From an uncultured cyanobacterium (lineage in GTDB: Bacteria; Cyanobacteriota; Cyanobacteriia; CACIAM-69d): a stretch of 46,426 nt of DNA. A program made the position numbers and the translations under genes. Where the stretch lies: the NCBI GenBank assembly GCA_937883785.1, contig CALGDE010000077.1, positions 1-46,426 on the forward strand. The letters run 5' to 3'. This document shows positions 10,633 to 46,426 of this stretch, piece after piece. The notes under the pieces are model-generated. The model was not told the DNA's origin. It did not search any database and worked only from the letters and a program-made list of their open reading frames with translations. Positions within the stretch are counted from its first letter, which is position 1. Every line of letters starts with the position of its first letter.

Positions 10633-10660
10633 TTTTATGGCGTAAGTGCTGCCAAAAAAA

Positions 10661-12031: not shown

Positions 12032-12041
12032 GGAGGCAATC

Positions 12042-12115: not shown

Positions 12116-12144
12116 ATAGGTTCTGTTTTTACTCCACAACTCCT

Positions 12145-13182
12145 ATGCGCCCTTTGGTTTTGTCCCTGGTGACGCTGGCTGCCACTGCGGCGATCGCCCC
12201 CGCCACCCCATCAGCTTTTGCATTCGACCCCGAAGATTTACAGCAGCTAAATACCACCGGCCAGTGCCCCGGCTGCGATTTGCGCGATGCGGAGATTCGT
12301 AATCTGGACGTGCAAAATGCTGATTTGGCTGAGGCGGATTTAAGTGGGGCAACCATTACCAACTCGAGCTTGGTGGGGGCGAACTTTTCTCAGGCAGCAT
12401 TGATTGGGACTACGTTTGACACGGTGGATTTGGGGCGATCGCAATTTTTCCAAACCCGATTGCGCAACGCCAAATTTCGCGGTGTAAATTTCGCCGGGGC
12501 AAGCATCCGTGAATCTTGGTTGCGGGGCGCGAACTTAGCGGGGGTGAACTGGCAGGGAGTGACCGTTAAGGCATTGGTGTTGCGCGAGGCGAATTTGGCG
12601 GGGGCGAATTTGGCGGGGCTCGACTTAAAAGGGTCGCAGTTTGTTGAAGCCAACTTGACCGGGGCGAATCTGACTGGGGCGATCGCCATTCGGGCAAATT
12701 TTGAGGGTGCAACGCTGACCGGGGCGATCGCTGGGGAAGTGGACTTTACTGGGGCGAGCTTTCAAAATGCCACGGTTCGACGGGCAGATTTTTTCGGAGC
12801 CAACCTATCGGCAGTTAATAGCAATGGGGCGGACTGGAGCGAGACGATGTTGGCGGGCAGCAATTTGCGGGGAGCGTCGTTTCGGGGAGTCCAGGCGGAG
12901 CGGGTAAATTTGCAGCGGGCGATCGCCACTTCTAGCAACTGGACCGAGGCTAATGTGTCTGGCTCGTCGCTGTATCGGATGAATTTTGGGGCGAGCATTT
13001 TGCGATCGCTCAACCTATCGGGAGCCGATGCCCGCCAGGCTAACTTTGGTGGGGCACAGCTTGCGGAGGCAGACTTCACCGACACCAATGTGGATCGGGC
13101 TTACTTCTTTGGGGCGGATTTGGCTGGAGCAAATTTTGCAGCGGCGATTGGGGGCGATCGCGCCAGATTCGCCCAGTTTTAG
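12145..13182 (+). CDS. Secreted pentapeptide-repeat protein
   Basis: The 345-residue product starts with a clear signal peptide (MRPLVLSLVTLAATAAIAPATPSAFA, cleavage near residue 26). A short segment with CPGCDL follows, then almost the whole chain is A(D/N)LXX pentapeptides from about residue 45 to 340. These fold as a right-handed quadrilateral beta-helix. The cyanobacterial signal peptide implies the periplasm or thylakoid lumen. The CPGCDLRDA cap before the first repeats recurs in cyanobacterial lumenal pentapeptide proteins (from memory of the family). No function can be assigned. The coding DNA is dense in GGGGCGA words because of the repeats. Confidence 0.92.
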   Translation: MRPLVLSLVTLAATAAIAPATPSAFAFDPEDLQQLNTTGQCPGCDLRDAEIRNLDVQNADLAEADLSGATITNSSLVGANFSQAALIGTTFDTVDLGRSQFFQTRLRNAKFRGVNFAGASIRESWLRGANLAGVNWQGVTVKALVLREANLAGANLAGLDLKGSQFVEANLTGANLTGAIAIRANFEGATLTGAIAGEVDFTGASFQNATVRRADFFGANLSAVNSNGADWSETMLAGSNLRGASFRGVQAERVNLQRAIATSSNWTEANVSGSSLYRMNFGASILRSLNLSGADARQANFGGAQLAEADFTDTNVDRAYFFGADLAGANFAAAIGGDRARFAQF

Positions 13183-22060: not shown

Positions 22061-23803
22061 TTATGCCGCAACCCGCCAGTCTTGAGCCCGCTGCTGTATT
22101 TCCCACATAGTTGCGTAACGTCCCTGGCTCGCTAGCAACTCCCGATGTGAGCCTCGTTCGATGACTTTGCCTTCTTCCAGCACGAGGATTAAATCGGCAG
22201 CGGCGATCGTGGACAGGCGATGGGCGATTACGATCACCGTTTTATCCACCACCAGTTGGTTGATTGCATCTTGCACTGCCACCTCACTTTCAGTGTCTAA
22301 CGCGGACGTGGGCTCATCGAGCAAGACGATGGGGGCGTTTTTCAGCATGGCGCGGGCAATGGAAAGGCGCTGACGCTCACCGCCGGACAGGGCACCACCG
22401 ATGTCGCCAATACGAGTGTTGTACCCCTGGGGAAGTCGGGCGATAAAGTCGTGGCAATTGGCGGCGCGGGCAACGGATTCCACTTCGGTATCGGTGGCGT
22501 CGGGCTTTGCCATGCGGATGTTGTTGAGGATGGTGTCGTCGAACAGGTACACATCTTGAAAAACAACGGAAATGGAGTGCATTAGGTGGGCAGGGTCCAC
22601 GTCCCGGATATTGACATCGCCGATGCAGATTGTCCCGGCTTGTATATCGGCGTAGCGGCTAATTAGGCGAGAAATGGTGGTTTTGCCGCTGCCGGAGGGT
22701 CCCACCAGCGCCGTTAGCGATCGCGCCGGAGCCTGGAATGAAACGTCCTGGAGCGCCCATTGGGTTTGGTTATCGTAGCGAAAGTACACCTGGTCGAAGT
22801 GAATATCGAATCGGGTTAGCGCGGTGGGAGAGGGTGGCGCGGGCAGTGCCGGAATCGCCAGCACTGCTTCAATGCGCTTAAGGCTGACTTCCATTAGATC
22901 AAAGATGCTGGTGAGCCCAATAAGCTGGGAAACGGGCTCGGTAAATCGCATCGCAATTACAATCAGCGCAAATAAAGCGGGCGTGGATAGGGTGCCTTGC
23001 AAAATAAATAGAACGCCTAAGCCAATAATGACCAAGATTCCGATCTCAACCAGGGTGGCCATTGTGGCTACGGGCACACTAACGAGGCGCTGCCCCTGCT
23101 GTTGAGCGATTCTTTGACCTTCCAACGCTGCCCGTAGCCTTTGGGAGCGCTCCCCCACCTGATTATTAGCGCGCAGAACCGGTAGTCCCTGGGCATATTC
23201 CACTACCCGTGAGGCAGCATCAACATTGGCGTCGGACGCTTTACGAAAGCTGGCTTGGGCTCGCGATCGCATCTGTCGATAAATTGGCACCGCCAGCGGG
23301 AAGAAAATGAGTAAGGCCACGGCGAGCCGCCAGTCAATTAGCAAAGTGAAAAGCACCGTAGTTAATGGCACTACCACCGTTCGAATCAACAGCGTCACCA
23401 GACCGCCAATCCACATCACCAGCTCGCTTACATTGCCGCTCATCACCACATTTAAGTCGCCGGAACGCCGCTGGTTTAGATCCTGCAATGGGATCTGCCG
23501 CAGCTTCTCCCCGAGGCGTAATCGCGTTTCGTGGGCCACGTCCAAGGAGGTCGTCCAGCTAAAATCTAACTCTTCCCAGCGGATTGCTCCCTCCACCACC
23601 ACCAGAAGCCCAAACAGCCCTAACAAGATCCAGGCTGGCTGAGCGTCAATGGGCTGGGACATCAACGCCGATAGCAACGGAAAGAACAGGGCGAAGATGA
23701 TTCCCTGGAGAATGGAAGCAATAACTGATAGTAAAAAAGACTTTTGCAGTTGTGGTTTGTAAGAGCCGGCCACAACCATCATGCGCCTGTAGGTTTTAAG
23801 CAT
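22061..23803 (-). CDS. ABC half-transporter, siderophore-linked (partner 2)
   Basis: The product has an exporter-type transmembrane domain (six helices, about residues 15-310) fused to an ATPase domain: Walker A GPSGSGKTT, Q-loop VFQDVYLF, signature LSGGERQRLSIARA, Walker B IVLLDEPTSALD, and switch IVIAHRLSTI. It pairs with the next gene as a heterodimer. Placed downstream of TonB receptors and AraC regulators, the pair resembles YbtP/YbtQ and IrtA/IrtB, exporter-fold proteins that import ferric siderophores; export is the alternative. The start is taken as ATG 23803; the frame also opens five codons earlier at a TTG. Confidence 0.9.
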   Translation of the reverse strand: MLKTYRRMMVVAGSYKPQLQKSFLLSVIASILQGIIFALFFPLLSALMSQPIDAQPAWILLGLFGLLVVVEGAIRWEELDFSWTTSLDVAHETRLRLGEKLRQIPLQDLNQRRSGDLNVVMSGNVSELVMWIGGLVTLLIRTVVVPLTTVLFTLLIDWRLAVALLIFFPLAVPIYRQMRSRAQASFRKASDANVDAASRVVEYAQGLPVLRANNQVGERSQRLRAALEGQRIAQQQGQRLVSVPVATMATLVEIGILVIIGLGVLFILQGTLSTPALFALIVIAMRFTEPVSQLIGLTSIFDLMEVSLKRIEAVLAIPALPAPPSPTALTRFDIHFDQVYFRYDNQTQWALQDVSFQAPARSLTALVGPSGSGKTTISRLISRYADIQAGTICIGDVNIRDVDPAHLMHSISVVFQDVYLFDDTILNNIRMAKPDATDTEVESVARAANCHDFIARLPQGYNTRIGDIGGALSGGERQRLSIARAMLKNAPIVLLDEPTSALDTESEVAVQDAINQLVVDKTVIVIAHRLSTIAAADLILVLEEGKVIERGSHRELLASQGRYATMWEIQQRAQDWRVAA

Positions 23804-23927
23804 GGTGGCGAGTACCAAAGGTAATGGAGATTGAACAATGAACCGTCACGGGAAAAAGTGGGAGCGTTATTGAGAGCGTTGGAAATTACAGAACAGATAG
23901 GGATACGAATGCGGTTGGTCAGACTGT

Positions 23928-25727
23928 TTATTTCTCCGTTGGCGCTGTGGAGGCACTTCCCCTCAACTCCCAGTTTTGAGCTTCTTGGTAGCGCTTCCAC
24001 AGGCGAGAATAAACACCCCCAAAAGCGACTAATTTATCGTGATCCCCCAACTCCACCAGCCTTCCTCGGTCAAGCACTGCAATTTGATCCGCATTGATAA
24101 CTGATGGCAGTCGATGGGCGATTACGATTAGGGTCTTATGGCGGGTGAGGGCGGCGATCGCATCCTGGATCAAAGCAGCGTTTTCAGGGTCCGCGAAGGC
24201 CGTTGCTTCGTCTAGGACCACGATGGGGTTGTCCTGCAAAATCGCCCGAGCGATGGTGATGCGCTGGCGTTGTCCACCGGATAGTCGGGAACCCCGCTCC
24301 CCCGCGATCGTGTCGTAACCGTTGGGTAAGGCCAGAATAAACTCGTGGGCTTGGGCAGCTCGAGCCGCCGCTTCCACCTCCTGATCGGTGGCGTTAGGAC
24401 GTCCTAACTTGATGTTGTCTTTAATGGTGTCGTGCAGCAAAAAGGTGTCTTGGAAAACAAACGAAACCCAGGACATCAGGGTTTCCGAAGTCATCTGTCG
24501 CACATCCACGTCCCCAACTTTGATCGCCCCCTCTGTCACATCCCAAAAGCGAGGAATGAGCCGTGCCAAGGTGGTTTTACCGGCGCCGGAGGCTCCCACC
24601 AGTGCGGTTACGGTGCCAGCGGGTATGGTCAGGGATACGTCCTGTAGGGCGGTGCGATCGCCATTGGCAAGATCACCGTATAAGAAGGTGACGTGGCTTA
24701 GGGTAACCGAAGCATCTTGAGGAGATTTAGGGTGGGTTGGCTGGGGAAGGGCGGGCTCCGCCAGCACCGAACCGATACGCATAGCCCCCGCCTTTGACTG
24801 ATTAACAAAGTGGGACAGGGTAAGGATTGGTTTAAATGCCCCGCACAGACGAGGGGCTAGCAGGAGAAACACCAGCAGCTGAGGAAAAGTTAACGAGCCC
24901 TGAGCCATTAACCAGGTGCCGACGGCGATGATCGGTATTAGGAGCGGTAGGGGTTCAAAAAGCAGGGTTGCTAAGCTTCCCGGCAACTTGGTTTTAGCGT
25001 TCCAGTCCCGCAGACTTTGGGTAAAGGCATTGAGGGATTTTTGAAACCTGGCAAAGGAGCTGCTGCCATCGTCAAAGGTGCGCACCACCTGCATACCCTG
25101 GACAAATTCGATAATGACGCCATTAATTTCCTCGTTGGCGCGATCAGTGGACTCTCGGACTTCCGCATAATCCCGCATCGTTAGCTGAATCAAAGCCATA
25201 CCCAACGGGAGCAGGGCAAAGGTGGCGATCGCCATCCGCCAGTCGGTAATCAATACAATTACCAAGGACAGCGTCGGAATCGTATATACCTGACCGATAA
25301 GGGGGGTCGTGTCCGCCACAAAGGCGTGCAGCGACTGCACATCATCCTGCATCCATTTTTTAATGGCACCGGAGCCATGGGTCACTACGTAGCCTAGGGG
25401 TACCTGAGCCAGGTGTTCCGCCATGGCGGTGCGCAAAATCACTTCAAGCTTAAAAGCCGCTAGATGGGAAATGGCAGAGGACGCCAGCCGTGAGGTAAAG
25501 GCGATCGCCACCAGCACCGCAGCAAGCCCTAACCAACGCCAAATAACGGCAGGATCCGGCGATTCGGACAGTAATTCGACGGCAATCTGAGGAATCATCA
25601 ACAGTGAACCGAGGCTGGCGATCGCACTGAAGGCTGCAAGGGCGATCGCTCCGGCAATGCGCCCCTTAACCGGAGCCATAATGCTCCAAACTCCGGTTGG
25701 CGGCTTAGTAAAAGCTGACTGAGTCAT
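23928..25727 (-). CDS. ABC half-transporter, siderophore-linked (partner 1)
   Basis: This second exporter-fold half-transporter has six helices (about residues 20-310) and an ATPase domain: Walker A GASGAGKTT, signature LSGGQRQRITIARA, Walker B IVVLDEATAFADPEN, and switch IVIAHRLPSV. The ATAFADPEN D-loop replaces the usual ATSALD. From memory it recurs in YbtPQ/IrtAB-like siderophore transporters, which supports an iron-uptake role. The frame extends to an ATG at 25760, but that codon lies in the inverted end of repeat copy C. The ATG at 25727 (MTQSAFTKPP) is preferred. The partner gene follows after 124 bases. Confidence 0.9.
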   Translation of the reverse strand: MTQSAFTKPPTGVWSIMAPVKGRIAGAIALAAFSAIASLGSLLMIPQIAVELLSESPDPAVIWRWLGLAAVLVAIAFTSRLASSAISHLAAFKLEVILRTAMAEHLAQVPLGYVVTHGSGAIKKWMQDDVQSLHAFVADTTPLIGQVYTIPTLSLVIVLITDWRMAIATFALLPLGMALIQLTMRDYAEVRESTDRANEEINGVIIEFVQGMQVVRTFDDGSSSFARFQKSLNAFTQSLRDWNAKTKLPGSLATLLFEPLPLLIPIIAVGTWLMAQGSLTFPQLLVFLLLAPRLCGAFKPILTLSHFVNQSKAGAMRIGSVLAEPALPQPTHPKSPQDASVTLSHVTFLYGDLANGDRTALQDVSLTIPAGTVTALVGASGAGKTTLARLIPRFWDVTEGAIKVGDVDVRQMTSETLMSWVSFVFQDTFLLHDTIKDNIKLGRPNATDQEVEAAARAAQAHEFILALPNGYDTIAGERGSRLSGGQRQRITIARAILQDNPIVVLDEATAFADPENAALIQDAIAALTRHKTLIVIAHRLPSVINADQIAVLDRGRLVELGDHDKLVAFGGVYSRLWKRYQEAQNWELRGSASTAPTEK

Positions 25728-25750
25728 GGTTTGTGGCACCCATAATCTAA

Positions 25751-25950
25751 GGGCTGTCATCAGTTAAGGAGGCTTACGCCGCCATCTTTAAACGCTCAAC
25801 GGTAATCAAAGCTAAGGAGCCTGAGGCAAGGGGAATATTCTCTGTAATGCTACTGACGTGTAAAAGAAAAAAGGCGCTTTAAACGCATTTTTGATACGGC
25901 GTGTACTTCCCACTGGGTAAGACTTTTGGAAATTGATCGATGGCATGCCC
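25751..25950 (+). repeat. Dispersed repeat copy C, with terminal 53-bp hairpin
   Basis: The left end is GGGCTGTCATCAGTTAA and the right end is GATCGATGGCATGCCC. The inner hairpin spans 25898-25950: GGCGTGT pairs with GCATGCC if G-U wobble pairs are allowed. Its loop holds GTAAGACTTTTGG, matching the other copies. It lies between the TonB receptor (ending 25988) and the first ABC gene, inside what would be one minus-strand operon. The left end offers an extra ATG in frame with the ABC gene. Confidence 0.78.
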
Positions 25951-25987
25951 TAGGTTGGACCTTCAAAACTCATTGAACGCCCTAACT

Positions 25988-28492
25988 TTAAAACCTGGTT
26001 CTAAATTGAATGCCATAGGTTAATGGGGCTCCAAAGGAGGCAATATCTCCAATGGGAGGAAGAGCAAATGCTTGGCTAATGTACTCAGTATTAAAGAGAT
26101 TATTTGCAAATAAATAAACGCCAAAACCATCCGTTTCATAGCCTAGGCGAGCATTCACAATGGAATGGGGATCCTGCTTAAGCGTGTTGGCATCATCAAA
26201 GAAAGTCTCCCCTACTCCTTGTAGTTCAACCCTGCCGAAAATTCCCATAGGGCTACGGTATTGAACCGCTAAGTTGTAGGAAAAGTTAGGGGAAAAGGTT
26301 AGCTTATTGCCGCTTAAATCATCTCCAGAAAAAGGATTATTAGAATCAGAAAATTCAGCATCCACTAACCCAAATCCTGCAATAACATCAAGCCCAGCCA
26401 TTGGTGTTGCTCTGGCTTCAACCTCGAAGCCAGTGATGCTGACATCAGCGTTCGCCAAAAATGCCGAGCCCAAATTATCAAATGACAGCACCTGGAAGTC
26501 GTCAACCCGACTATGAAACACAGCCAAATTAACCACTAGACGATCATCAAGCCACGAAGATTTCAAACCGCCTTCATAATTCCAAGATCGCTCAGCTCCA
26601 TAGGTCGCAGTTTCCGCATTACCCGGAATTAAATTGGCACCAGGCGGCCGATAGCCTCGTGTGATGCTGCCGTAAGCCATCAGATTCGGGGTAAAACGAT
26701 ACTCTGCAACAAAGCGAGGTAAAAAGGTATCGCCGTCTTGCTCAACATCCCTGAGGGAAAGCAATGTTGTATCTGGCAAACCGGGGGTGCTAATAACGCG
26801 ATCAAAGTTTTCCAGCGTGCTATGAGTGGATTCATAGCGGAGCCCCGCCGTTAGGGTAAGAGCGTCAATGGGACGGTAGCTTAATTGCCCAAAAAGAGCA
26901 AAGGTTTTACTATCAACCTCGCCATTGCTTAAGTTAAGGGTGCCTTCTGGAAACGGTATTCCAAAGTTTGCAGCACTAGCGCCGTAACGAAAGCCATTAT
27001 CCTTTGAATCGAGCTGGCTTGACTCGTAATACCCTCCTAGCAACCATTCGAAGCGGTCTGCCGATTCAGGGGATTGTATCCGTAATTCTTGGCTAAAGAT
27101 CCGGTTACTCGCTTCATCGGTTAAACGTTCCAGAGCGTCAAGAACCGTGGGGTCACCATCACTGTTGAATTGACTACGAGACTCGCGGCGAGCGGTGATA
27201 GAAGTAATGCGAAAGTCAGGGTGAGTATAGGCAATTCGAAAGGCTTGCGAATTGATTGTTAGGTCGTTGACTCCGTCGATGTTCTGCTCGACTTTAAATG
27301 GATCGTTGCCCTCGCCCAGGACAATATTGCTTCCGGTACCGTCTTCATAGTCGTCAAAGGCGACATTTAAGGAGACTTCCCAGGCTTCGGACGGGGTCCA
27401 CAGCAGTTGCGCTCGCCCTGTGCCTCTGGAGTTTTCATTAACGTCCTCATTTAGGAATGGGTTGCGCAAGTAACCATCCCATGAATCGTAGCTTCCGGAT
27501 AATCGGAAGAAGAGTTCATCTTCAATGATTGGCCCGCTGATTCCGGCTCTTAAGTCTAAGTCGTCAAATCTTCCATAGCCAGCAACGGCGTTAAATTCAA
27601 ATTTATTCGTAGGTTTGCGGGTGATTAGGTTGACAACCCCTGCAATAGAATTACGCCCGTACAAAACATTTTGAGGACCGCGCAGCACTTCTATTCTTTC
27701 TAGATCGGGGAGGTTGACGTCAATAAATGATAAGAAGCCGTAAGGAACTCCGTCGATGTAAAAGTCTATGGGGTCGCGATTAGCGATAAAGGAAGAGTTC
27801 GAAAGCCCGCGAATGCTGTACACGGCGAAGGAGCGATCGCCAATGGGAAAGAAGGAAAAGTTCGGCACATTGCCAGCGATCGCCTGCAATGAAGTTAGAT
27901 CCGCATCTTCAATTTCCTGCCGCGTAATGGCGGTGACGCTGATGGGAACATCCTGCAAATCTTCAGGGGTTTTCTCTGCCGTAACAACAATTCGAATCCC
28001 CTCATCATTAGGAGTCGGATCGTCTGTCGCTAGCCCACTCCTGCCCGGCATCACCCCTAATATCCAGGTTTGTCCATCGGTCTCAATCGCTGCAGTGGGT
28101 GGAGCCTCCAAGCCAGTCATAACGATCTGAACATCATTGTCCGATACGTTAGAAACCACTATTAGAGCAATGCCCGCCGCAGGATTGGCAATTTCAAAGG
28201 TGTCCTCGCCTGCCAAATTTAGCGCTGCATTAGGGATATTGACGATTAAGGCATTTTCGATGACGGAGGTTGATACCCCTTCAAGCAATCCGTCAGCGGT
28301 TTCCAAGAGAACATTCAAGCCAGTCTCAGTTGTATCGACTCTTACCTCCGTAATTTGAGTCAAACTTGCTTGAGTTTGCTCCAATAGCGGTTCCCTTGCC
28401 TCCTGGGCTGAAACCGGTTGGGCGATCGCCATCGCGATCACAGCAGCCACAGAGGATCTGCACAAGCCATCAGATAACCACTTTCTCACCAC
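25988..28492 (-). CDS. TonB-dependent siderophore receptor with AMIN-like N-domain (intact copy)
   Basis: This outer-membrane beta-barrel receptor is probably for a ferric siderophore. After a signal peptide (KWLSDGLCRSSVAAVIAMAI, ending at VSAQE) comes an AMIN-like segment (ITEVRVDTTETGLNVLLET). The plug domain has RIVVTAEKTPEDLQDVPIS, YSIRGLSNSSF, and LERIEVLRGPQNVLYGRN; the barrel ends in FRTRF. The frame can be read from GTG 28525. GTG 28492 is preferred: AGGAG sits just upstream and the broken paralogue starts at the equivalent place. It follows an AraC regulator by about 120 bases and precedes the ABC pair. Confidence 0.93.
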   Translation of the reverse strand: MVRKWLSDGLCRSSVAAVIAMAIAQPVSAQEAREPLLEQTQASLTQITEVRVDTTETGLNVLLETADGLLEGVSTSVIENALIVNIPNAALNLAGEDTFEIANPAAGIALIVVSNVSDNDVQIVMTGLEAPPTAAIETDGQTWILGVMPGRSGLATDDPTPNDEGIRIVVTAEKTPEDLQDVPISVTAITRQEIEDADLTSLQAIAGNVPNFSFFPIGDRSFAVYSIRGLSNSSFIANRDPIDFYIDGVPYGFLSFIDVNLPDLERIEVLRGPQNVLYGRNSIAGVVNLITRKPTNKFEFNAVAGYGRFDDLDLRAGISGPIIEDELFFRLSGSYDSWDGYLRNPFLNEDVNENSRGTGRAQLLWTPSEAWEVSLNVAFDDYEDGTGSNIVLGEGNDPFKVEQNIDGVNDLTINSQAFRIAYTHPDFRITSITARRESRSQFNSDGDPTVLDALERLTDEASNRIFSQELRIQSPESADRFEWLLGGYYESSQLDSKDNGFRYGASAANFGIPFPEGTLNLSNGEVDSKTFALFGQLSYRPIDALTLTAGLRYESTHSTLENFDRVISTPGLPDTTLLSLRDVEQDGDTFLPRFVAEYRFTPNLMAYGSITRGYRPPGANLIPGNAETATYGAERSWNYEGGLKSSWLDDRLVVNLAVFHSRVDDFQVLSFDNLGSAFLANADVSITGFEVEARATPMAGLDVIAGFGLVDAEFSDSNNPFSGDDLSGNKLTFSPNFSYNLAVQYRSPMGIFGRVELQGVGETFFDDANTLKQDPHSIVNARLGYETDGFGVYLFANNLFNTEYISQAFALPPIGDIASFGAPLTYGIQFRTRF

Positions 28493-28563
28493 ACCACTCC
28501 TCAACGACTCAAGCTTGAATTGCACGATTTATGAGTTCAGAGTAAATAAGAATTAATCTCAAC

Positions 28564-28580
28564 ACAGCTCCAAGCGGTAT
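28564..28580. promoter_or_regulatory. 17-bp motif shared by both AraC-receptor gaps (copy 1)
   Basis: ACAGCTCCAAGCGGTAT lies in the gap between the AraC regulator and the intact receptor, 72 bp before the preferred receptor start. The equivalent gap of the sister module has ACAGCTCCAAAGGGTAT at 32590-32606 (15 of 17 identical). Weaker similarity continues for about 25 bases on the plus-strand right side. It could be the binding site of the PchR-like regulators; duplication ancestry alone could also explain it. Confidence 0.5.
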
Positions 28581-28613
28581 CTTTTCTGACCCGAGAGGTA
28601 TTTAGCCTCTGCT

Positions 28614-29654
28614 TTAAGATGCGGATCGGCTTGATTTAAAGGCTGTGGGCGTAATTCCATACTTTTTCTTAAATGCCGCCGCAAACTTCCCCGGGTGAGT
28701 GTAACCAACCACCTGTGCGACCTGAGTCACGTTTAAGCGCCCCAGCTCCAACAGCCGCCTTCCTTCTTCCATACGGTGCGTATACAAATAGCCAAATACT
28801 GTGGTGTTGAAAACCTGGCGGAATCCTTTTTTTAATTTGAGACTATTAATGCCAGCCTCTTTCGCTAATGCCAATAAAGACGGGGGAGTATCCAAATTAC
28901 GAATGAGAATATCCCTCGCTAAATAAATCCGAGCAACATCATCAGACTTCAGGCTAGAGGAGGATGGGAGAGCAGGGACTTTCTCACCCAGCGCATCAAG
29001 CTGTAATGCCATCAGCTCTAACGCCTTACCTTCCAAGTAAAGTCGTTTTGTTAAACCTCGATAGGGGCAATGAATGATTTGACGCAGGGCAATTGCCATC
29101 GTGGGCGTTATATTGCGAGTCTCCCACTGGAACCCTGCTTGACTATTGGAAAAAATCTGGTCTAAGGACTTTTGGACGTCGTCCGCTGAATCCTCTAACA
29201 ACTCACCCAATAAATCTGGGTTGACATCAAGCTGTACAAGGGAAACCTTTTGTCCAGACATCACTTCTGACACCGCCTTAATGTCGCCTTGGAACAACCC
29301 AGATTGGGCTTCAGAAGTGCGTGTTTCCATGTCTACAGTTGAGCCGGATATTTTCGTCAAAAAACCGCCAGAAAGGCAAAAGCTGAAGCCAAAGGAGGGT
29401 TGAGCCTGGCTGCTCATCGTAAGACTGAGATCTTGGGTCATATCCCACTCAGCCACCGATAAATTGAGGCCCTTTCTCAGGGAAATGGAACGATTAAGCA
29501 TCGTTCCAAAGGGTTGATGCAGCCGCCATAAAATCTCATTACCTTTGACTTGATAATTTATGCCTGTTTCAGGGCGTTCTGCTGCCTGCTGTAGTTCTGC
29601 CAGCATTTCTTGAAGATCGCTGTAGTTCAGGGAGAGATGATGGCGGTTAAGCAT
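28614..29654 (-). CDS. AraC-family transcriptional regulator, PchR-like (copy 1)
   Basis: The 346-residue product has a C-terminal AraC DNA-binding domain (about residues 240-340): LARDILIRNLDTPPSLLALA, then KLKKGFRQVFNTTVFGYLYT, HRMEEGRRLL and VTQVAQVVGYTHPGKFAAAFKKKYGITPT. The N-terminal 220 residues resemble the sensor part of PchR-type regulators, which respond to a ferric siderophore and activate receptor genes. It lies directly upstream of a TonB receptor on the same strand and is clearly paralogous to the gene at 32651-33685. The start is the ATG at 29654, where MLNRHHLSLNYSDLQEML aligns with the sister protein. Confidence 0.92.
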   Translation of the reverse strand: MLNRHHLSLNYSDLQEMLAELQQAAERPETGINYQVKGNEILWRLHQPFGTMLNRSISLRKGLNLSVAEWDMTQDLSLTMSSQAQPSFGFSFCLSGGFLTKISGSTVDMETRTSEAQSGLFQGDIKAVSEVMSGQKVSLVQLDVNPDLLGELLEDSADDVQKSLDQIFSNSQAGFQWETRNITPTMAIALRQIIHCPYRGLTKRLYLEGKALELMALQLDALGEKVPALPSSSSLKSDDVARIYLARDILIRNLDTPPSLLALAKEAGINSLKLKKGFRQVFNTTVFGYLYTHRMEEGRRLLELGRLNVTQVAQVVGYTHPGKFAAAFKKKYGITPTAFKSSRSAS

Positions 29655-29763
29655 GAGGATTAGGCGTCAAAAAGAGGTGGCATCATCGAGCATTGCATTA
29701 GGTCCTGCCGCCAATTCAAGTCGAAGTTCAGTCGTCACAGCCCTTAGTGTTTTCTCTTCTGGG

Positions 29764-29816
29764 GGATGCGTATTCCTATGGACGAAAACTTTTGGATGTT
29801 AATTGATAACGCATCC
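29764..29816 (+). repeat. Hairpin element copy E (53 bp)
   Basis: GGATGCGT (29764-29771) pairs perfectly with ACGCATCC (29809-29816). The interior has CGAAAACTTTTGG and GTTAATTGAT, aligning with the loops of copies A, B, C and D. To the left, CAGCCCTTAG and a T-rich run also match copy A. No clear GGCTGTCATCA left end was found here. It lies about 110 bases before the start of the AraC gene, in its presumed promoter region. Confidence 0.75.
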
Positions 29817-29938
29817 TAATTATGCGATCGCTCTTCACAACGCTCTCAGACTATTGATAGAGTTTATCAACAATCTAATGGGCTTCTCGCCTGGCGGATC
29901 TGGGAGCGCCACAAAAAAGGACGATGCACCGTAGCGCT

Positions 29939-32449
29939 TTAAAATCGAGCCTTAAACTGAATACCGTATGTACCAGGGGCGCCATAGATGCCAAGGTTGC
30001 CAATGGGAGGCAAAGCCAACGCCTGATTCACGTACTCGGTGTCGAAAATATTATTGGCAAACAGGTAAACGCCGTAGTTGTCCCCTTCGTAGCCTAGGCG
30101 GGCATTTACGATCGCATAGGGATCCTGTTTGACAGAATTATCAGCCTCAAAATAAGTGATACCAGCCCCCTGCAACTCCACCCGCCCGAAGAATCCGCTG
30201 GGGCTGCGATACTGCACCGCCAAGTTGTAGGTCAGATCCGGCGCATAGGTCAGCTTATTGCCCACAAAATCATCATTGTTGGGATAATCCGTAAATTCGG
30301 CATTGACGTAGCCCAGTCCAGCGATGATGTCTAAGCCATCTAACGGCGTTGCCCTCAGCTCCAGCTCAGCGCCAGTGATACTGACGTCGGCATTTTCAAT
30401 CACTGACCCCAGCTGATCGTCAAAGGTCAATACCTGGAAATTTTCCACCGGGTTATGGAATACCGCCAGGTTAATCCCTAGGCGATCGTCCAACCAGGAA
30501 GACTTCAGTCCAATTTCATAGTTCCAAGACCGTTCCGCCTCAAACGTAGCCGTCTCTTCCGTGGATGGCGTAAGGTTCACCCCCGGCGGTCGATAGCCCC
30601 TAATGATGCTGCCGTACACCATCAGATTGGGATTAAAGCGATATTGGGCAATAAACGAAGGGAGCAGTTCAGTATTGTTTTGCTCAATATCCTCCAGAGA
30701 CACCAGGGTTGACGGGGGGCTGCCGGGCATAAGCAGAAAGCGATCAAAGCTTTCTAAGGTGCTGCGGGTGGACTCGTATCGCAACCCTGCGGTTAAGGTC
30801 AACGCTTCAACGGGCTGGTAACTAACCTGACCAAAGAGAGCAAAGGTGGTGGTATCGACTTCCACATCGGCAAGGTTGCTGGCACCGGGAGGAAACGGAA
30901 ACCCCAAAAGCGCCACATCGGCTCCAAACTCAAGACCATTATCAGATTGAGTGATCTGGCTTGATTCAAAATAAGCGCCAGCGGTCCATTGGAATTTTTC
31001 AGCATCCTCTGGTGACTGAATTAGCAGCTCCTGACTGAAGATGCTGTTATCCGCTTCATTCAGGGTGCGCAGTAGCCCATCAATGGTGCTGGCATCACCA
31101 TCAAACTCAAACGCCGTGCGAGAAAAACGTCGCGCGGTAACTGAGGTAACTCGAAAATCAGGATGGGTATAGGCGATTCTCAAAGATTGAGAGTCGGAGG
31201 TCAGCTCATTGAAACCATTAAAGTCCTGCTCGGATTCAAAGGGATCTGATTCGCCGAGTGCTACATAGGGGGCACCGCCCTCGTCATAGTCTTCAAAGGA
31301 AGCGTTAAGGAGGATATCCCACTCCTCCGACGGTACCCATCGCAGTTGAGCGCGGCCGGTCCAACCAGACTGATCATCCACATCCTCGTCTAGCAGCGTG
31401 TTGCGCACATAACCATCCCGTGATCCATAGCTACCCGACAGCCTGAAAAATAGCTCGTCGTCGATAATCGGACCACTGATGCTGGCTCGCAAATCAAGAT
31501 CGTCGAAGTTGCCATACTGAGCGCTGCCGGTAACTTCAAATTCATTGGTGGGCTTTTGGGTAATGATATTCACCACCCCAGCGATCGCATTTCTGCCGTA
31601 GAGAACACTTTGGGGACCCCGCAGGATCTACACCCGTTCTAGATCGGGAAAATCAAAGTCGGTGAAGGCTGCCAGGCTAGTGGGCACTCCGTCGATGTAG
31701 AAGTCGATGGGATCTCGATTCACTAGGCTGGAGGCGTTGGAGATGCCTCGGATGCTGTAGAGGGAGAAGAATCGATTACCGCTAGGGAAGAAGGAAAAGT
31801 TAGGGGTGTTCCGGGCGATCGCGTCCAAAGAAGTAATGTCCGCATCTTCAATATCCTGTTCCGTTAGGGCGGTCACGCTAAGGGGAACGTTTTGAAGATC
31901 CTCGGGCCTTTTTTCGGCGGTGACGATAATCCGTAGCGCTCCGTCATCTGCCCTAGCCGGGGACTCTGCGATGGGGGAGTCTGGGGCGATCGCCAACACC
32001 AACCCTTGCCGATCAGCACTGACGGCCACCACCGGTGGAGCCTCTAAACCTGTGATCGCCACTCGAACCACATTGTCAGGGGATTTAGCAACCGAAATCC
32101 GAGCAATACCGTCAATGGGGTCAGTGGCCTGAAAATTTTCCCCGTCAGATAAATTAAGCGTTGCATTGGGAATATCCACAATCAGAGCATTTCCCAAGAC
32201 TGATGTTGGTGGAATATCGAGAGTCCCCGCCGCCGTACTCAAAACAAGGCTTAATCCGGTTTCCGTTGTCTCTAACTGAACCCCTGTAATTTCAGTGACG
32301 CTTACTTGATCTTGCTGCGATATAGGTTCTTCTAGCCCTTGGGCAATACCCGGCTCTTGAGCAACAACAGGTTGTGCGATCGCCACGGCAATCATCGCCG
32401 AAGCCAAATACCAGCCATCCTAGCCCTTGAATAACCACTCTCTCACCAT
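29939..32449 (-). pseudogene. TonB-dependent siderophore receptor broken by two amber codons
   Basis: The original start is ATG 32449 after GGAGG (32456-32460), giving MVREWLFKG before an in-frame TAG at 32420-32422 in the signal peptide. The frame stays open from there (259 codons read from ATG 32407) through the AMIN-like and first plug segments to a second in-frame TAG at 31628-31630, where LERV*ILRGPQ replaces the LERIEVLRGPQ of the intact paralogue. It then continues without frameshift through the barrel to FKARF. The second stop fits a single change of GAG to TAG. Total length is 837 codons against 835 in the intact copy. Both lesions could be assembly errors, or fragments could still be made from internal starts. 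Confidence 0.88.
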
Positions 32450-32589
32450 GCCATTCCTCCTATACAACACCTCAAATCACGAGGCTCATAAGGCTAAAGC
32501 AAGCGCAGACTTCCAGCGTTGACGGCTCCTCGCCGAGAGTATGCGCTTACCTTGCTATGGAGGCAGGTTAAAAAATATCCCCTCTTGAG

Positions 32590-32606
32590 ACAGCTCCAAA
32601 GGGTAT
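32590..32606. promoter_or_regulatory. 17-bp motif shared by both AraC-receptor gaps (copy 2)
   Basis: ACAGCTCCAAAGGGTAT lies between the end of the AraC gene and the broken receptor, about 140 bp before its ATG. It matches 28564-28580 at 15 of 17 positions. Confidence 0.5.
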
Positions 32607-32650
32607 TTCCTTAAGCCCTGTAGGGATCTGGAGGTTCATCAACGCGCCGA

Positions 32651-33685
32651 TCAACGCGACCTAAGGGTCTTTGGCGTGATTCCGAATTTTTTCTTAAATG
32701 CTGCGGCAAATTTACCCGAGTGGGCGTAGCCAACGGCCTGTGATATCTGGGTAACGTTGAATTGCCCCAGCTCCAATAGGCGCCGCGCCTCTTCCATGCG
32801 ATGGGCATGCAAATATCCAAATACCGTGGTCTTAAAAACCTGGCGAAATCCCTGCTTGAGCTTGAAACTGTTAATGCCAGCTTGCTTAGCCAACGCCAAC
32901 AACGACGGCGGATCGCCCAAATTCTCAATCAAAATATCCCGAGCCAAATAAATCCGAGCCATATCTTCAGGCTTAAGGGTGGGAGAAGATTGTAGAGAGG
33001 ACTGGTCTTCATTGAGCTGATTAAGTTGAAGGGCAATCAGCTCCAGGGTCTTGCTTTCCAAATAAACCCGCCTTGTTAAGCCCTGGTAAGGACATTGCAA
33101 AATCTGGTGCAGGGCGATCGCCATAGCAGGGGTGACTTTCTGAGCCCGCCATTGAAACCCCTCCTGAGTACTAGAGAAAATCCCATTCAAAGGATGCAAA
33201 GCATGATCCGGCGGTGTGTCCGTTAACGCTTCCAGCAGGCACGGGTCAACACCGAGCTGCACCAGCGTCACCTGTTCCCCCGCCGCCGCCTGGTTGGTTG
33301 TTTTAACATCCCCTTGGAAAAAGCCCACATGACCTTCGCTAGGATCAGCGTTAAACTCAGCATCAGAGCCCGCTATTTTGGTCAGGAAATCGCCGCCAAC
33401 ACAGAAGCTGAACCCAAACATCGGCTGCATTTGTTCGTCGATGGTGAGGCTGAAGTCTTGCTGTAAATCCCATTCGACGACAGATAAGTTTAGCCCTTCC
33501 CTCACATCAATGGCACGGCTCGACCACCGACCGAAAGGGTTATAAAGCTCCCAGGACACCTCGTGTCCCTCTGCCCGGTAGCTTGACCTCATCTTCGGCG
33601 ATGTTTCCTGTTGTTTTGGAACTTCTTGAGATTCTGCCAACATTTCCAGAAGATCGCTGTAGTTCAAGGAGATGTCGTTAGCCAT
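32651..33685 (-). CDS. AraC-family transcriptional regulator, PchR-like (copy 2)
   Basis: The 344-residue product is colinear with the regulator at 28614-29654. It starts MANDISLNYSDLLEMLAE and ends with the AraC domain LARDILIENLGDPPSLLALA, KLKQGFRQVFKTTVFGYLHA, HRMEEARRLLELGQFNVTQI and GYAHSGKFAAAFKKKFGITPKT. It probably senses a ferric siderophore and activates the adjoining receptor, now broken. The intact reading frame shows that the regulator has not decayed together with the receptor and may act elsewhere. Confidence 0.92.
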   Translation of the reverse strand: MANDISLNYSDLLEMLAESQEVPKQQETSPKMRSSYRAEGHEVSWELYNPFGRWSSRAIDVREGLNLSVVEWDLQQDFSLTIDEQMQPMFGFSFCVGGDFLTKIAGSDAEFNADPSEGHVGFFQGDVKTTNQAAAGEQVTLVQLGVDPCLLEALTDTPPDHALHPLNGIFSSTQEGFQWRAQKVTPAMAIALHQILQCPYQGLTRRVYLESKTLELIALQLNQLNEDQSSLQSSPTLKPEDMARIYLARDILIENLGDPPSLLALAKQAGINSFKLKQGFRQVFKTTVFGYLHAHRMEEARRLLELGQFNVTQISQAVGYAHSGKFAAAFKKKFGITPKTLRSR

Positions 33686-38368: not shown

Positions 38369-39499
38369 ATGTATCATCTATTGCAACAGTCCCTATCCCG
38401 CCCCACTGTTCGTCGTTGGGCGATCGCCCTAATCATTCCCATCACCATCGCCGCCACCGTTCCCAAAGCCCAGGGCAGCGAACAGGATATTGTTCCCGCT
38501 GACGTTATTGCTGATGTTATCGATTCCGACGTTATTGATGTTGATGTTGATGTGATTGACGTCCCAGGCGAAACCCCAAGGGGCATTGGCGAAGTTGTGG
38601 AAGCCCCAGAAAAGGGAGCGATCGCCGATATTGCCAGCGAAGATAGCAATCAGAACGGTACCTCTCGCATTTTGCAGGTGAATCCTAATGGTGGGGAAAC
38701 GTTTGGCACTTTGACTGAGGCTTTGGCGATCGCCCAGTCAGGGGACACCATTCAACTGGCCGCGGGCACCTACAGTGCGGAAACTGGCGAACAATTTCCC
38801 CTGATCATTCCTAAGGGTGTAACCATTGTGGGCAATGAAAATACTGAAGGAAAAGGAGTAGAAATTATCGGCGGCGGTGCTTTTATTAGTCGCACCTTTG
38901 CCCGACAAAATGTTGCCCTGGTGGTGACCCAAGACAACATTAAAATTGGCGGCATTTCCGTTAGCAACCCCAATATTCGAGGCACGGGGCTATGGATCGA
39001 ATCGGGCAACCCCGTTGTGCAATTTAGCCGCTTTCACCAAAGCCATCGAGATGGGATTTTTGTCACCGGCACGGCTCGTCCCCTGATTAAGAACTCCCTG
39101 TTCCATAAAAATGGTGGAAACGGCATTTCCGTCGCCCGCAATGGGGGGGGCGAAATCCGCGATAGCTGGTTTCAAGACACCGGCTTTGGTTTAGCCATCG
39201 GCGGCAACGCTAACCCCAAAGTAATTAACAACAATATCGTCAACAATAACGATGGTCTTGTGGTATCCGGGTCAGCTCGTCCCATGCTGCGGGGCAACGT
39301 GATCCGCAAAAACCTGCGCTCCGGCATGGTGGCGATCTCCAACGCCGCCCCCGACCTAGGCACCGCCGCTGATCCAGGTCAAAACCAGTGGATTGACAAC
39401 GGACAGTACCACTTTCAAAATGCCACCCGAGCCGCCATTCTTGCCGTGGGCAACCAATTTAACGGGGGTGCAAATATGGGCTCAGTGATTACCCAATAG
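38369..39499 (+). CDS. Secreted right-handed beta-helix protein (DUF1565-like)
   Basis: The 376-residue product has a signal peptide (RRWAIALIIPITIAATVPKAQG, cleavage near residue 36) and an acidic, repeat-like linker (VIADVIDSDVIDVDVDVIDV, about 45-65). The DUF1565-type opening follows: GGETFGTLTEALAIAQSGDT and IQLAAGTYSAETGEQFPLII. Beta-helix rungs run to the end, with motifs such as GDGIFVTG-like RDGIFVTGTARPLIKNSLFH, NGGNGISV and NPKVINNNIVNNNDGLVVSG. Related folds occur in alginate epimerases and pectate lyases, but no catalytic motif was identified. It faces the lyase-fusion gene, 36 bases away, so a shared polysaccharide target is possible. Confidence 0.87.
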   Translation: MYHLLQQSLSRPTVRRWAIALIIPITIAATVPKAQGSEQDIVPADVIADVIDSDVIDVDVDVIDVPGETPRGIGEVVEAPEKGAIADIASEDSNQNGTSRILQVNPNGGETFGTLTEALAIAQSGDTIQLAAGTYSAETGEQFPLIIPKGVTIVGNENTEGKGVEIIGGGAFISRTFARQNVALVVTQDNIKIGGISVSNPNIRGTGLWIESGNPVVQFSRFHQSHRDGIFVTGTARPLIKNSLFHKNGGNGISVARNGGGEIRDSWFQDTGFGLAIGGNANPKVINNNIVNNNDGLVVSGSARPMLRGNVIRKNLRSGMVAISNAAPDLGTAADPGQNQWIDNGQYHFQNATRAAILAVGNQFNGGANMGSVITQ

Positions 39500-39535: not shown

Positions 39536-42500
39536 TTAAAAACCCAAGTTCCAATAAGGTCGAATGCCGTCATGGGGAAAGAAAACAGCCTTGGTGTTGT
39601 AAAGATCTGGAGCCGCTTTAAGGGGCTTAATATTGGCGTCAGGGTACTGATGCTTTGCGGTCCAGTACAAAGGCAGCAGGCGATCGCTATCAAAGGGATC
39701 AATTTGTTGAAAGGGCCAATCTCGCCCATAAAAGGGAATTAACCACTTTAAAGCCTGTTTTAAACTGCGGCCATCATGGGATTCAACGGACCATAAATCG
39801 TAGTTAATACAGTCTGCTAGTCGCGCTAAATTCACCGAACTTTGCAAGTTAAACGCACAATAATGGGCGGTGGTTGTTCGTCTTAATTCCTCCGGCTGCT
39901 CCCCCGTTGGTGCAATTTGCTGCGCAATTCTTAGCTGCGATCGCTGGAAAATATGAGATAAAGCTCGCGGATCATCCAAGTAGGCACAAATGGACGCAAG
40001 CTGTAAATCAAAGCAGGTGCCATGGTTATTTTTTTCCCTTAATTCCTTTTGTCCCTGGGGGCTTTCTTCCAGCCACAATCGGAATTCAGATAGCCAACTT
40101 TGCAGACTTTTCCTGTCACCTTCAGTCCACTGCCCCGACCGCTCTAGCAGTCTCACCGCGTCTAAAAGAAAGTAAAAGTCCTTAGTTTCAATAACTCCAA
40201 AACTGCTTCCCTGATTATCATTGTGACCCAGGCGCACTTGGGAATATTGCAAATGGGGATTCATGCGAGTTTCGGGTTCGATAAACCACGTGCGCACCAG
40301 GGCTGCTCCCCGTTCCGCATAAGCTAAATTCCCGGAAAAATACCACGCCAAAGCTAAGGTTATGGTCTCGTCAAACAGTCGTTGCAGGCGGGTGCGATCA
40401 TAGCGATCGCTCTTAACTTCATACATCCGAGTTCCCTCCACCCGCTCCCCGTCACGGCGAATATAGGGCAATCCATCGGCAGTATCGGGATTTGGCCACC
40501 AGTAGGGAGCCGGATGCCAATAATCATGGGCATCGCCACTGGGGGGCAAGGTTGTTTTATGGGTGACCGAGTACAGCGGATTATCTAAACTATCGTCTGC
40601 AGCCCGTAGAAGTTGGGTGATAATTCTCTGAATGGCGGGATCTTGATCGTTCCAGCGATCGCGATTCTCCTCCAAAGTTTTCTCTTGATAAATACAGAGT
40701 TTCTCCGCCGAAAATTCCTGCCGAGCAATATTTTCGTCCAGGGTGTCTAAGAAATTGCAAATAGCGAAAACCCTCTGTTGCCCTCGATTTTTAATGGCTG
40801 CAATATCCCCCGTTTCCAAATGAGATACCCCAGAAAATAAGCGGGCTACCCAGCCAACCGGCTTGAACTGAAATACCTCATCAGATTCAACCCAATTTTT
40901 CCGCTCCCAAGGGTCAAGCCTCCACCGATCCCACTTCCCTGGAAACTTCAGTCGCCACAACATTTCCACCTTAGGACGACGCCCATATCTCGCCTTTTCA
41001 TTGAATAACTCAATGGAATCCCGACGAAATAAGATCTGAGGCTCTTCCACCGGGTTGGGTTCTAAATTTGGATCCAATAAATCTTGGTTATCCAAACATC
41101 GCATCATAGGAACAATAAAATATTTATGATGGGGCGCACCTTTAACCCCTTCAACAATTTCGTTCCAAGCTCTCTCGGTCAAAAAGCAGTTTCCATCCCA
41201 GGGTAAAACCCACTTTGCCCTTTTCTTGCCATCCAAAAGAGCTGCATTTCGAGCACCATTGTTGTTCATTACGTAACAATTCTTGCCCGAGTAAGGGTGC
41301 TCTAACGCTCGGTTTTTGGCGGTTTTGTCTAAGGCTTCAAAAGCTTTGCTGTAAAAATATCCAGGCTCTGGAAAGTCATCTAAATCAAAGTTCACTGCTG
41401 CGTACTCTGATTCCACATAGGGAATAGAAAAATAGCTTTGATTATAAGATTTCAGCAGCTCAATCAGCCTGGCTTCCTGCTCAGGATTAACAATACGATT
41501 TAAGACCCAGCGCTTTTCACAGTGGGGCAGCTCAGGCTCATTTTCCAGCAGAAAGGTCACGCTTTTAATGGTTTGCTCAGGACTATGGCGCGGCGGTAAG
41601 TCATTCCCTAAAATCCGGTACAGAACAAAGGTATCGGGTTCCTTTGAAATCTCCAGCTGCCCATAGTCATCCTTTAAAATCTGTTGTTGAATGGGGCGAA
41701 TGGGTAACACCAACGCCAAGGTTTGTTGCCATTGCTTTTGGTCCGTTAAATGGTCCGCATTGAATGTTTCCCCAATTTCTTCAGCGAATTTTTGAAAACT
41801 TCGAATCCAATGGCTAGGGGCAGCACTACGTAAATGGGGGCTGAAACTGAGCGATCGCCGCAAATACCGCCCCATTTCCTCAAACTCCCCGCCGCGATAC
41901 AGCACCCAGCTAAGCCATACATAAGTGTTGTATCGCACCTCTCCCTCTAAATCTTGAATCTCTCTCCCTAACCCAGGCTGTTGGAAAAATCGATCTAGCC
42001 ACGCCTGCACGGACTGGGCTTGAACCCGCGCCTTGCGAGTGGTGTTGGCACCATGCTGTCGGTAGGCCACCGCGATCGCCCGCCACCAGATTGATCGACA
42101 GCCCGCCTGGGTTAGCCGCAACATCAAATCCACATCATGGGACTGACGCAGGGATCCATCAAAACCACCCACCTTTTCCAGCCACCCCTTACGCACCAAC
42201 AGCCCACTAAGGCGAATCGGCTTCCATCGCAGCCAGTCCACGAGGTCTAAATTAGGCGCATTATCCCAAGGCGTTACCTCTCGAATGCAGTGCCCACTGT
42301 CGTCCACCCGCTGCCAGCCCGTGTGCACACAGTCCGCCCCCTCCTGTTCCGCCAGCGCCAACTGCTGAGTGAGCTTATCCGCCCGCAGAAACCAATCATC
42401 ACTGTCTAAAAATGCAATCCACTTTCCCGCTGCCGCCTTAATGCCCAAATTTCGCGCCGCCGCCGAGCCCTGGTTTTCCTGCTTAATCACCTTTAGGCGA

Positions 42501-42694
42501 TCGCCTCGCACCGCCAGCGCCCCATCAAAAGCCTCCTGAATCACCTGCTGAGTATTGTCAGTGGAGCCATCGTCCACCACAATCAACTCCCAACTTTGAC
42601 ACGTTTGCTCACAGACACTTTCCAAAGCACGACCAATCGTCGCAGCGCTGTTAAAAACCGGAACAATAACGCTAATGGAAACTGCCATAGTCAC
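39536..42694 (-). CDS. Fusion: family-2 glycosyltransferase, unassigned middle region, PL5-type alginate lyase
   Basis: The product has 1052 residues (1050 if ATG 42688 is used instead of GTG 42694). Residues 5-230 are a GT-A glycosyltransferase: ISVIVPVFNSAATIGRALES, VVDDGSTDNT, the metal-binding LDSDDW (D97, D99) and VGGFDGSLRQSHDVDLMLRL. Residues about 355-640 form a separate module (YRILGNDLPPRH, CEKRWVLNRI, WVLPWDGNCFLT) that I cannot assign. Residues about 690-1030 are an alginate-lyase domain: DAHDYWHPAPYWWPNPD, NNHGTCFD and TTAHYCAFNLQSS. N890-H891, R938 and Y945 keep the same spacing as the catalytic Asn191-His192, Arg239 and Tyr246 of Sphingomonas A1-III. There is no signal peptide, so the lyase part is presumably cytosolic unless exported otherwise. 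Confidence 0.88.
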   Translation of the reverse strand: MTMAVSISVIVPVFNSAATIGRALESVCEQTCQSWELIVVDDGSTDNTQQVIQEAFDGALAVRGDRLKVIKQENQGSAAARNLGIKAAAGKWIAFLDSDDWFLRADKLTQQLALAEQEGADCVHTGWQRVDDSGHCIREVTPWDNAPNLDLVDWLRWKPIRLSGLLVRKGWLEKVGGFDGSLRQSHDVDLMLRLTQAGCRSIWWRAIAVAYRQHGANTTRKARVQAQSVQAWLDRFFQQPGLGREIQDLEGEVRYNTYVWLSWVLYRGGEFEEMGRYLRRSLSFSPHLRSAAPSHWIRSFQKFAEEIGETFNADHLTDQKQWQQTLALVLPIRPIQQQILKDDYGQLEISKEPDTFVLYRILGNDLPPRHSPEQTIKSVTFLLENEPELPHCEKRWVLNRIVNPEQEARLIELLKSYNQSYFSIPYVESEYAAVNFDLDDFPEPGYFYSKAFEALDKTAKNRALEHPYSGKNCYVMNNNGARNAALLDGKKRAKWVLPWDGNCFLTERAWNEIVEGVKGAPHHKYFIVPMMRCLDNQDLLDPNLEPNPVEEPQILFRRDSIELFNEKARYGRRPKVEMLWRLKFPGKWDRWRLDPWERKNWVESDEVFQFKPVGWVARLFSGVSHLETGDIAAIKNRGQQRVFAICNFLDTLDENIARQEFSAEKLCIYQEKTLEENRDRWNDQDPAIQRIITQLLRAADDSLDNPLYSVTHKTTLPPSGDAHDYWHPAPYWWPNPDTADGLPYIRRDGERVEGTRMYEVKSDRYDRTRLQRLFDETITLALAWYFSGNLAYAERGAALVRTWFIEPETRMNPHLQYSQVRLGHNDNQGSSFGVIETKDFYFLLDAVRLLERSGQWTEGDRKSLQSWLSEFRLWLEESPQGQKELREKNNHGTCFDLQLASICAYLDDPRALSHIFQRSQLRIAQQIAPTGEQPEELRRTTTAHYCAFNLQSSVNLARLADCINYDLWSVESHDGRSLKQALKWLIPFYGRDWPFQQIDPFDSDRLLPLYWTAKHQYPDANIKPLKAAPDLYNTKAVFFPHDGIRPYWNLGF

Positions 42695-45601: not shown

Positions 45602-46075
45602 TCAGCTAGCGGTATACCAGCTGACATCGCGCCCCTTAGTGGACCAAAAGATGTTGTGGATTTTTTCCACAGCTTCCATTAGCTCAGCAGCATGGGTTTC
45701 GCTCACTTCTACCTTGCAGGCGGAGCATAGCTTGGTAGCTTTCCAGAAAGTGTCGTGTAGATCGGGATACTTCTCCAAGTGAACAGGCTTGAAGTAGTCA
45801 GTCCACAGCACCAACATTTCAGTTTTCGCTAGGTGAGCCTGCTCTTCCTTGATCGCCACATAGCGAGCCACAGTGTTTTGGTATGCAGCCATCGCCTTTG
45901 CGTCGCCAGCGCTGGGAACTTCCAAAGCTAGGATTTTCTTGGTCATCGAAACAACGGCTTCAGCAGCAACGCGAATCGAAGAAGGATCATACACACCGCA
46001 AGGACCATCGCAGTGAGCATAAACGGTTTCACTGGGGCGATTGGACTTAATCAAATGTGAAATCTGCTTCAGCAT
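45602..46075 (-). CDS. sodN: Nickel superoxide dismutase precursor
   Basis: SodN converts superoxide to oxygen and hydrogen peroxide with a nickel ion held by its N-terminal hook. The hook HCDGPCGVYDP is present: after cleavage before His, His1, Cys2 and Cys6 are the ligands. From ATG 46075 the precursor has 157 residues, with a 20-residue leader (MLKQISHLIKSNRPSETVYA) and a 137-residue mature part. The frame extends upstream to a GTG at 46129, but the shorter leader fits the family better. The four-helix body shows AKMEML-like AKTEMLVLWTDYFKP and WKATKLCSACKVEVS. It forms an operon with the protease gene sodX. Confidence 0.95.
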   Translation of the reverse strand: MLKQISHLIKSNRPSETVYAHCDGPCGVYDPSSIRVAAEAVVSMTKKILALEVPSAGDAKAMAAYQNTVARYVAIKEEQAHLAKTEMLVLWTDYFKPVHLEKYPDLHDTFWKATKLCSACKVEVSETHAAELMEAVEKIHNIFWSTKGRDVSWYTAS

Positions 46076-46426
46076 GGTTTTCGTTCTGTTAATTTTTCTC
46101 AGCATTTGTAAGAGTTTAGCGTGATCCACCGGGGTTCGCTCCGTTTATTTTTGACAGCGTTCAATCGTCATACCTAACAAGCGAGCCGTGAAAAGATCTC
46201 TGGGGAGCAATGCCGCGCCGAATATAGCGCGTTGCTATTTCAGTCCAAAGCAGATTTGGAAAGCTTGTACGCAGGCTGGAGTCGTTCAAAATTAGGGGCA
46301 GGGAAGTCTTCAGCCAGGACTTACGCAAGAAACCTGAATGCCCCTCATCCCCCGGCCCCTCATCCCCAGGTAGCTATCCATTAGGCACAAGTCGGCGTAA
46401 TCCTTACTTGGCATAGCTTTTCGCCA
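46076..46426. other. Upstream of sodN; ends in a short inverted-end element
   Basis: No gene was found. The sodN promoter should lie within about 46080-46250. The last 110 bases hold a mobile-element-like repeat (listed separately) that may continue beyond the window. Confidence 0.5.
46317..46403. repeat. 87-bp MITE-like element
   Basis: The ends GGACTTACGC (46317-46326) and GCGTAATCC (46395-46403) are inverted repeats with one base missing. The interior has the tandem phrase CCCCTCATCCCC twice around a CGGC, and the 20-mer shared in reverse with positions 34-53. ACTTACGCA ends with CCCCTCA/CCCCGG-rich interiors are common in cyanobacterial intergenic repeats and at insertion-sequence ends (general knowledge). 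Confidence 0.7.

Follow-up and report, generated by a model that had tools for sequence, protein, structure and literature searches.

The window (the whole stretch of DNA analyzed, 46,426 nucleotides from an uncultured cyanobacterium) encodes a protein in which a family 2 glycosyltransferase domain (GT2, residues 1-235) precedes a middle domain (M, 353-690) and a PL38-like lyase domain (L, 691-1052). M and L are a conserved two-domain unit (M+L), and L most likely performs C5 chemistry on glucuronate while surface glycans are being made. Because M+L sits in the surface-polysaccharide gene clusters of many bacteria, L probably edits a polymer during assembly rather than digesting seaweed alginate. 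The parts are of known kinds (GT-A and PL38), and their M+L combination appears to be new; an incomplete search of the open-access literature found no description of the M+L family or of such a glycosyltransferase-lyase fusion. The features of the gene are as follows.

39536 to 42694, minus strand: whole gene, 1,052 codons, with GTG as the listed start and the ATG at 42688 as the likely true start
42005 to 42682, minus strand: GT2 (GT-A) glycosyltransferase domain, residues 5-230 (PF00535, E 7e-37; K4CP in the PDB, 3e-27)
42395 to 42406, minus strand: DSDD, metal-binding motif of the GT2 domain, residues 97-100
40625 to 41638, minus strand: domain M, residues 353-690, of predicted GT-A fold (alignments, AlphaFold2, Foldseek)
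41189 to 41197, minus strand: DGN of M, residues 500-502, candidate DxD-like metal site
39539 to 40624, minus strand: PL38-like lyase domain L, residues 691-1052 (PF05426; 3nfv and 8bdq; Foldseek)
40019 to 40030, minus strand: NNHG, residues 889-892, in 34 of 34 relatives; N890 corresponds to BoPL38 N242 and H891 to H243
39860 to 39880, minus strand: R939 to Y945; R939 corresponds to BoPL38 R292, H944 to H297 and Y945 to Y298

The gene is a single ORF with no internal stop in any of its codons, and its start is placed at the ATG because the copy in a same-genus MAG (contig L012) opens with MAVSIS at the same point. That copy has the same domain layout at 89% identity, and its neighboring beta-helix and AI-2E genes stand in the same order as in the window. 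Between the two copies dN/dS is ~0.05 in each of GT2, M, and L, which shows purifying selection, although the value is only rough because dS is near 1. The fusion is real and the locus is one gene, as the sequence-only reading had it when it described a single chain joining a GT2 and a lyase-like domain. That an assembly error merged two genes, or that they fused by chance, is hardly credible: a single in-frame TAA close to where M meets L in the same-genus copy would fit such an origin, but the layout recurs in that second assembly, all parts share the low dN/dS, M and L are joined in about 30 other loci, and in the sister genus M is accompanied by a weakened GT2-like part. The TAA may be a sequencing error or mark a broken copy. 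No signal peptide is evident, also as first read, and the only hydrophobic peak coincides with the opening strand of the GT2 fold; the three-part protein would be soluble and cytoplasmic. The gene is solitary, standing among unrelated genes and outside any polysaccharide locus. Tail to tail with it, 36 bp apart, lies a gene for a secreted-looking right-handed beta-helix protein (38369-39499, plus strand; DUF1565/NosD-like), and the order of these two genes is kept in the same-genus MAG.

In the GT2 domain, PF00535 matches residues 8-135, and the LDSDDW motif is present, as first noticed, at residues 96-101 with its DxD-type DSDD. The closest solved relative among PDB sequences is the chondroitin synthase K4CP. 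Like K4CP and PmHS2, the GT2 chondroitin and heparosan synthases that make GlcA polymers, the window protein has two GT-A domains per chain, but its second, M, is not recognizably GT2 by sequence. To our knowledge, no chondroitin/heparosan-type GT2 synthase carries a lyase-like domain.

A Pfam search of the whole protein, as the sequence-only reading had proposed, matched the GT2 and Alginate_lyase families and none between them. The residues in between had been passed over as a spacer; those from ~353 to 690 are a separate conserved domain. Alignments of M show the conserved motifs YRIxGNDLxPRH, NNNGARNAAL, and WVLPWDGNCF; in the DGN of the last, D and G are invariant in 25 sequences and N is present in 90% or more. 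No Pfam or PDB sequence family matched M, apart from a sub-threshold Glyco_transf_49 in 4 of the 25 sequences, and to judge from sequence its family appears to be new. An AlphaFold2 model of M alone (pLDDT 88.5) gave 26 Foldseek matches at E ≤ 0.001 to GT-A glycosyltransferases, the best being GalS1 (4e-5), SpsA, TarS/TarP, and K4CP, with LARGE1 also among them. Since these matches reach TM-scores of only 0.3-0.4 of the query, the model makes a GT-A fold class credible and does not reach a family assignment. Relatives of M were found neither in viral contigs nor in plasmids.

L is PL38-like and not PL5, the family to which it had first been assigned. Pfam places Alginate_lyase (PF05426) at residues 709-989 (E 3e-74), and the best PDB sequence relatives are 3nfv (BACOVA_01668; E 1e-70) and BoPL38 (8bdq; E 2e-63), with 36% identity to BoPL38 over 333 aligned positions. 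3nfv is a structure related to the PL38 lyases BoPL38 and CUL-I glucuronan lyase. Among PDB sequence matches no PL5 chain appeared at E ≤ 1, and a profile of 34 relatives reached one only at 1e-4, against 2e-72 for PL38. An AlphaFold2 model that includes L is mostly above 90 pLDDT in this region (the GT2 part is modeled poorly, as no other row of the alignment contains a GT2). In Foldseek the L model matches the helical barrels of PL38 structures with TMt 0.79-0.87 and rmsd 2.2-3.1 Å; the comparison with A1-III that had been suggested earlier (1qaz; TMt 0.61, rmsd 6.6 Å) is clearly poorer. PL5 enzymes (A1-III, AlgL, Smlt1473) have a related fold and the same kind of motif, NNH followed by Arg and Tyr, but they differ from L in structure (TMt 0.55-0.65, rmsd above 6 Å), in an Arg-to-Tyr distance that is one residue shorter in L, and in being periplasmic or secreted. 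Membership of L in PL5 was rejected on the sequence, profile, and TMt values.

The catalytic residue set appears complete from the alignment. Eight BoPL38 active-site residues were checked, namely those mutated in BoPL38 PDB entries according to the entry titles (Y91, D108, Q173, N242, H297, Y298) plus H243 and R292, and all eight are identical in L (Y731, D748, Q819, N890, H944, Y945, H891, and R939, respectively). All 34 relatives share N889, N890, H891, G892, R939, H944, and Y945. Of the set first proposed, NNHG and Y945 thus stand, while R938 does not: only 1 of 34 relatives has Arg at position 938, and R939 is the catalytic Arg. The exact match to the A1-III spacing falls with it, as the His-to-Arg and His-to-Tyr distances are 48 and 54 in L and 47 and 54 in A1-III; the apparent match was a coincidence that arose from picking the wrong residue. 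A pocket geometry for N890, H891, R939, and Y945 is one that we infer from the alignment to BoPL38. In BoPL38, the residues that take H5 during syn and anti elimination are Y298 and H243 (PMC13169297). H727 and E836/K838/D839, which are beside active-site positions in sequence, are invariant in L of the M+L family; BoPL38, 3nfv, and a stand-alone relative lack them.

A scan with residues 359-1052 recovered M+L in 35 loci from at least eight phyla: Bacillota, Pseudomonadota, Thermodesulfobacteriota, Verrucomicrobiota, Planctomycetota, Deinococcota, Atribacterota, and Cyanobacteriota. One Woesearchaeota MAG was also found. The M+L tree does not follow the species, which suggests transfer. The GT2 domain of the window shares homology with those of M+L chains from Desulfobacterales (L013) and Hyphomonas (L018), so a GT2 in an M+L chain is not unique to the window. 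The survey of domain order called for earlier had a positive outcome, and the layout is no peculiarity of this cyanobacterium, as had been supposed: the lyase and its adjacent domain are widespread, and the same-chain GT2 recurs.

Within Cyanobacteriota M+L is rare, being present in 4 of 386 sampled genomes including the host, plus the same-genus MAG. In the other three (L011, L048, L050), M is more or less intact and the lyase residues are lost, so L is dispensable there. This loss counts against a synthesis-editing role, as do the lone position of the window gene and the in-frame TAA of the same-genus copy. The three eroded domains would suit a clamp, in which L has lost catalysis and binds a uronate polymer for the transferases, and so would an alphaproteobacterial chain (L021:664-4455) in which two lyase domains flank M, the upstream one lacking the NNHG histidine (GNNITLWYY). 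We regard a clamp as improbable, given the seven residues identical in all 34 relatives and the low dN/dS. In the Marinospirillum celere M+L frame (L022:9605-13681), an in-frame TGA lies inside the lyase part.

The fusion partners of M+L are varied. It occurs with GT1, two GT2, and a methyltransferase in the Desulfobacterales chain (L013:4340-13078, 2,913 aa), with a sulfotransferase, GT2, and GT1 in the Hyphomonas chain (L018:3815-12139, 2,775 aa), with an FkbM methyltransferase in Pararhizobium (L027), and with Rhamno_transf in Salinicola (L019). Besides their many sugar-transfer domains, the first two chains contain a duplicated 220-aa domain of unknown function, which is a free gene adjoining M+L in L028. 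Similarly, an LDADD domain is fused in Bacillaceae and Opitutales and is a separate gene adjoining M+L in L019 and L045. The neighbors of M+L include GT2, Wzy, WbaP-like, ABC-2, dTDP-rhamnose, and sulfotransferase genes. In 9 of the 21 genomes, where 0.35 would be expected, genes of the UDP-Glc/GDP-Man dehydrogenase family lie within 15 kb of M+L, an excess that places M+L in polysaccharide loci with a uronate supply but does not by itself prove that L acts on that uronate. Some loci hold several PF05426 genes: three in Salinicola (two of them M+L), two in Desulfobacterales, and two in Pararhizobium.

The host has one PF05426 gene, that of the window, and one PF03721 gene (UDP-Glc/GDP-Man dehydrogenase family), adjoining a UDP-xylose-synthase-like gene. 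From the family and this neighbor, we take the PF03721 gene to be a UDP-glucose dehydrogenase. If that call is right, the host makes UDP-GlcA and has no second dehydrogenase for GDP-ManA, which makes alginate, the substrate first envisaged, an unlikely natural one. Since the lone dehydrogenase gene adjoins one that is UDP-xylose-synthase-like, the substrate of L is likely glucuronate and not mannuronate. One of two host sulfotransferase genes adjoins a GT2 and a Wzt-like ABC gene. A catabolic alginate or glucuronan lyase fused to a transferase by chance would account for the family name and the fold, but it is very improbable with no signal peptide, relatives in synthesis loci, and no other PF05426 lyase in the host. 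Aly38A, a PL38 domain alone, is placed outside the cell (PMC9029943); L differs in its fusion to two GT-A domains, its lack of a signal peptide, and the synthesis setting of its relatives.

We tentatively propose, short of calling it probable, a synthesis-editing enzyme with L as a C5-epimerase. From fold and motifs, GT2 and M would add sugars, and the target of L would be a hexuronate, most likely glucuronate, of the glycan that M or its partners make. N890 and R939 would hold the carboxylate and Y945 and/or H891 would remove the C5 proton, roles carried over from BoPL38 and related lyases to residues that are themselves observed. The aim would be editing of a growing chain, not feeding. Once the proton is removed, we slightly favor re-protonation (C5 epimerization) over bond breaking, because of the synthesis loci, the two to three M+L genes in some of them, the transferase fusion, the bases that the PL38 site has on both sugar faces, and the clade-specific H727 and E836/K838/D839. 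The catalytic residues themselves do not discriminate between a lyase and an epimerase.

An active lyase is possible, though we have slightly more doubt about it. L would beta-eliminate a glucuronate-containing nascent chain, which would terminate or free it and give the non-reducing end an unsaturated uronate; polymer length would be set, or misassembled polymer cleared, as by AlgL. Because L is 36% identical to a true lyase with the full active site, lyase chemistry could be expected in vitro, and the PL38 fold (TMt about 0.82) and the glucuronan lyases among other PL38 members (PMC9029943) point the same way. AlgL is described as a true lyase that works during synthesis (PMC8829089). AlgL, a PL5 lyase of alginate secretion, is a distant relative of L but a separate periplasmic protein with a mannuronate substrate. 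Cytosolic cutting of the cell's own precursor would, however, be wasteful, two or three PF05426 copies in some loci are more than a length cutter needs, and the site flanks are unlike those of degradative PL38. Of the earlier view that the lyase is probably active and tied to assembly, the retained residue set and the synthesis setting of relatives are borne out, while cleavage appears only possible.

The epimerase reading has a parallel in dermatan sulfate epimerase (DS-epi1/DSEL), where a lyase-like helical toroid is used in synthesis, as proposed for L. DSEL carries a sulfotransferase domain, as does the Hyphomonas M+L chain. These enzymes of the animal Golgi differ from L in having lyase relatives of PL8/12/15/21 type and an extra beta domain, and DS-epi1, unlike the window protein, has no transferase in the chain. 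Their C5 chemistry is by His/Tyr (PMC8006597). An Agl32-type epimerase was rejected as a relative, its fold being AGE-like (PMC13308652). That M+L represents a novel class of hexuronate-editing synthase in bacteria, with a dedicated GT-A transferase and a PL38-fold C5-epimerase making iduronate- or guluronate-type residues of surface polysaccharides, is rather unlikely; if true, it would be a bacterial counterpart of dermatan sulfate epimerase that evolved from another lyase family.

M+L proteins would normally be annotated as alginate lyases, and CAZyme surveys would score them as degraders. Should they be synthesis enzymes, degrader counts would be wrong for a recognizable clade, a nameless transferase family (M) would be revealed, and a clonable candidate for bacterial uronic-acid editing during surface-glycan synthesis would be at hand. 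M+L chains of ~700 residues without membrane segments open the question to in vitro work. In the N-termini of three Rhodobacteral M+L proteins (L032, L034, L040), a basic patch is followed by a single hydrophobic segment (ILILLSPVLVLLSPVLLPI) that might be a re-entrant membrane anchor.

Elsewhere in the window, two clusters (5470-13182 and 22061-33685) resemble siderophore uptake, with three TonB receptors (two with an AMIN domain), a FecCD permease, a periplasmic binding protein, an MFS exporter, two ABC exporters, and two AraC regulators. A nickel superoxide dismutase gene (sodN) lies at 45602-46129 on the minus strand.
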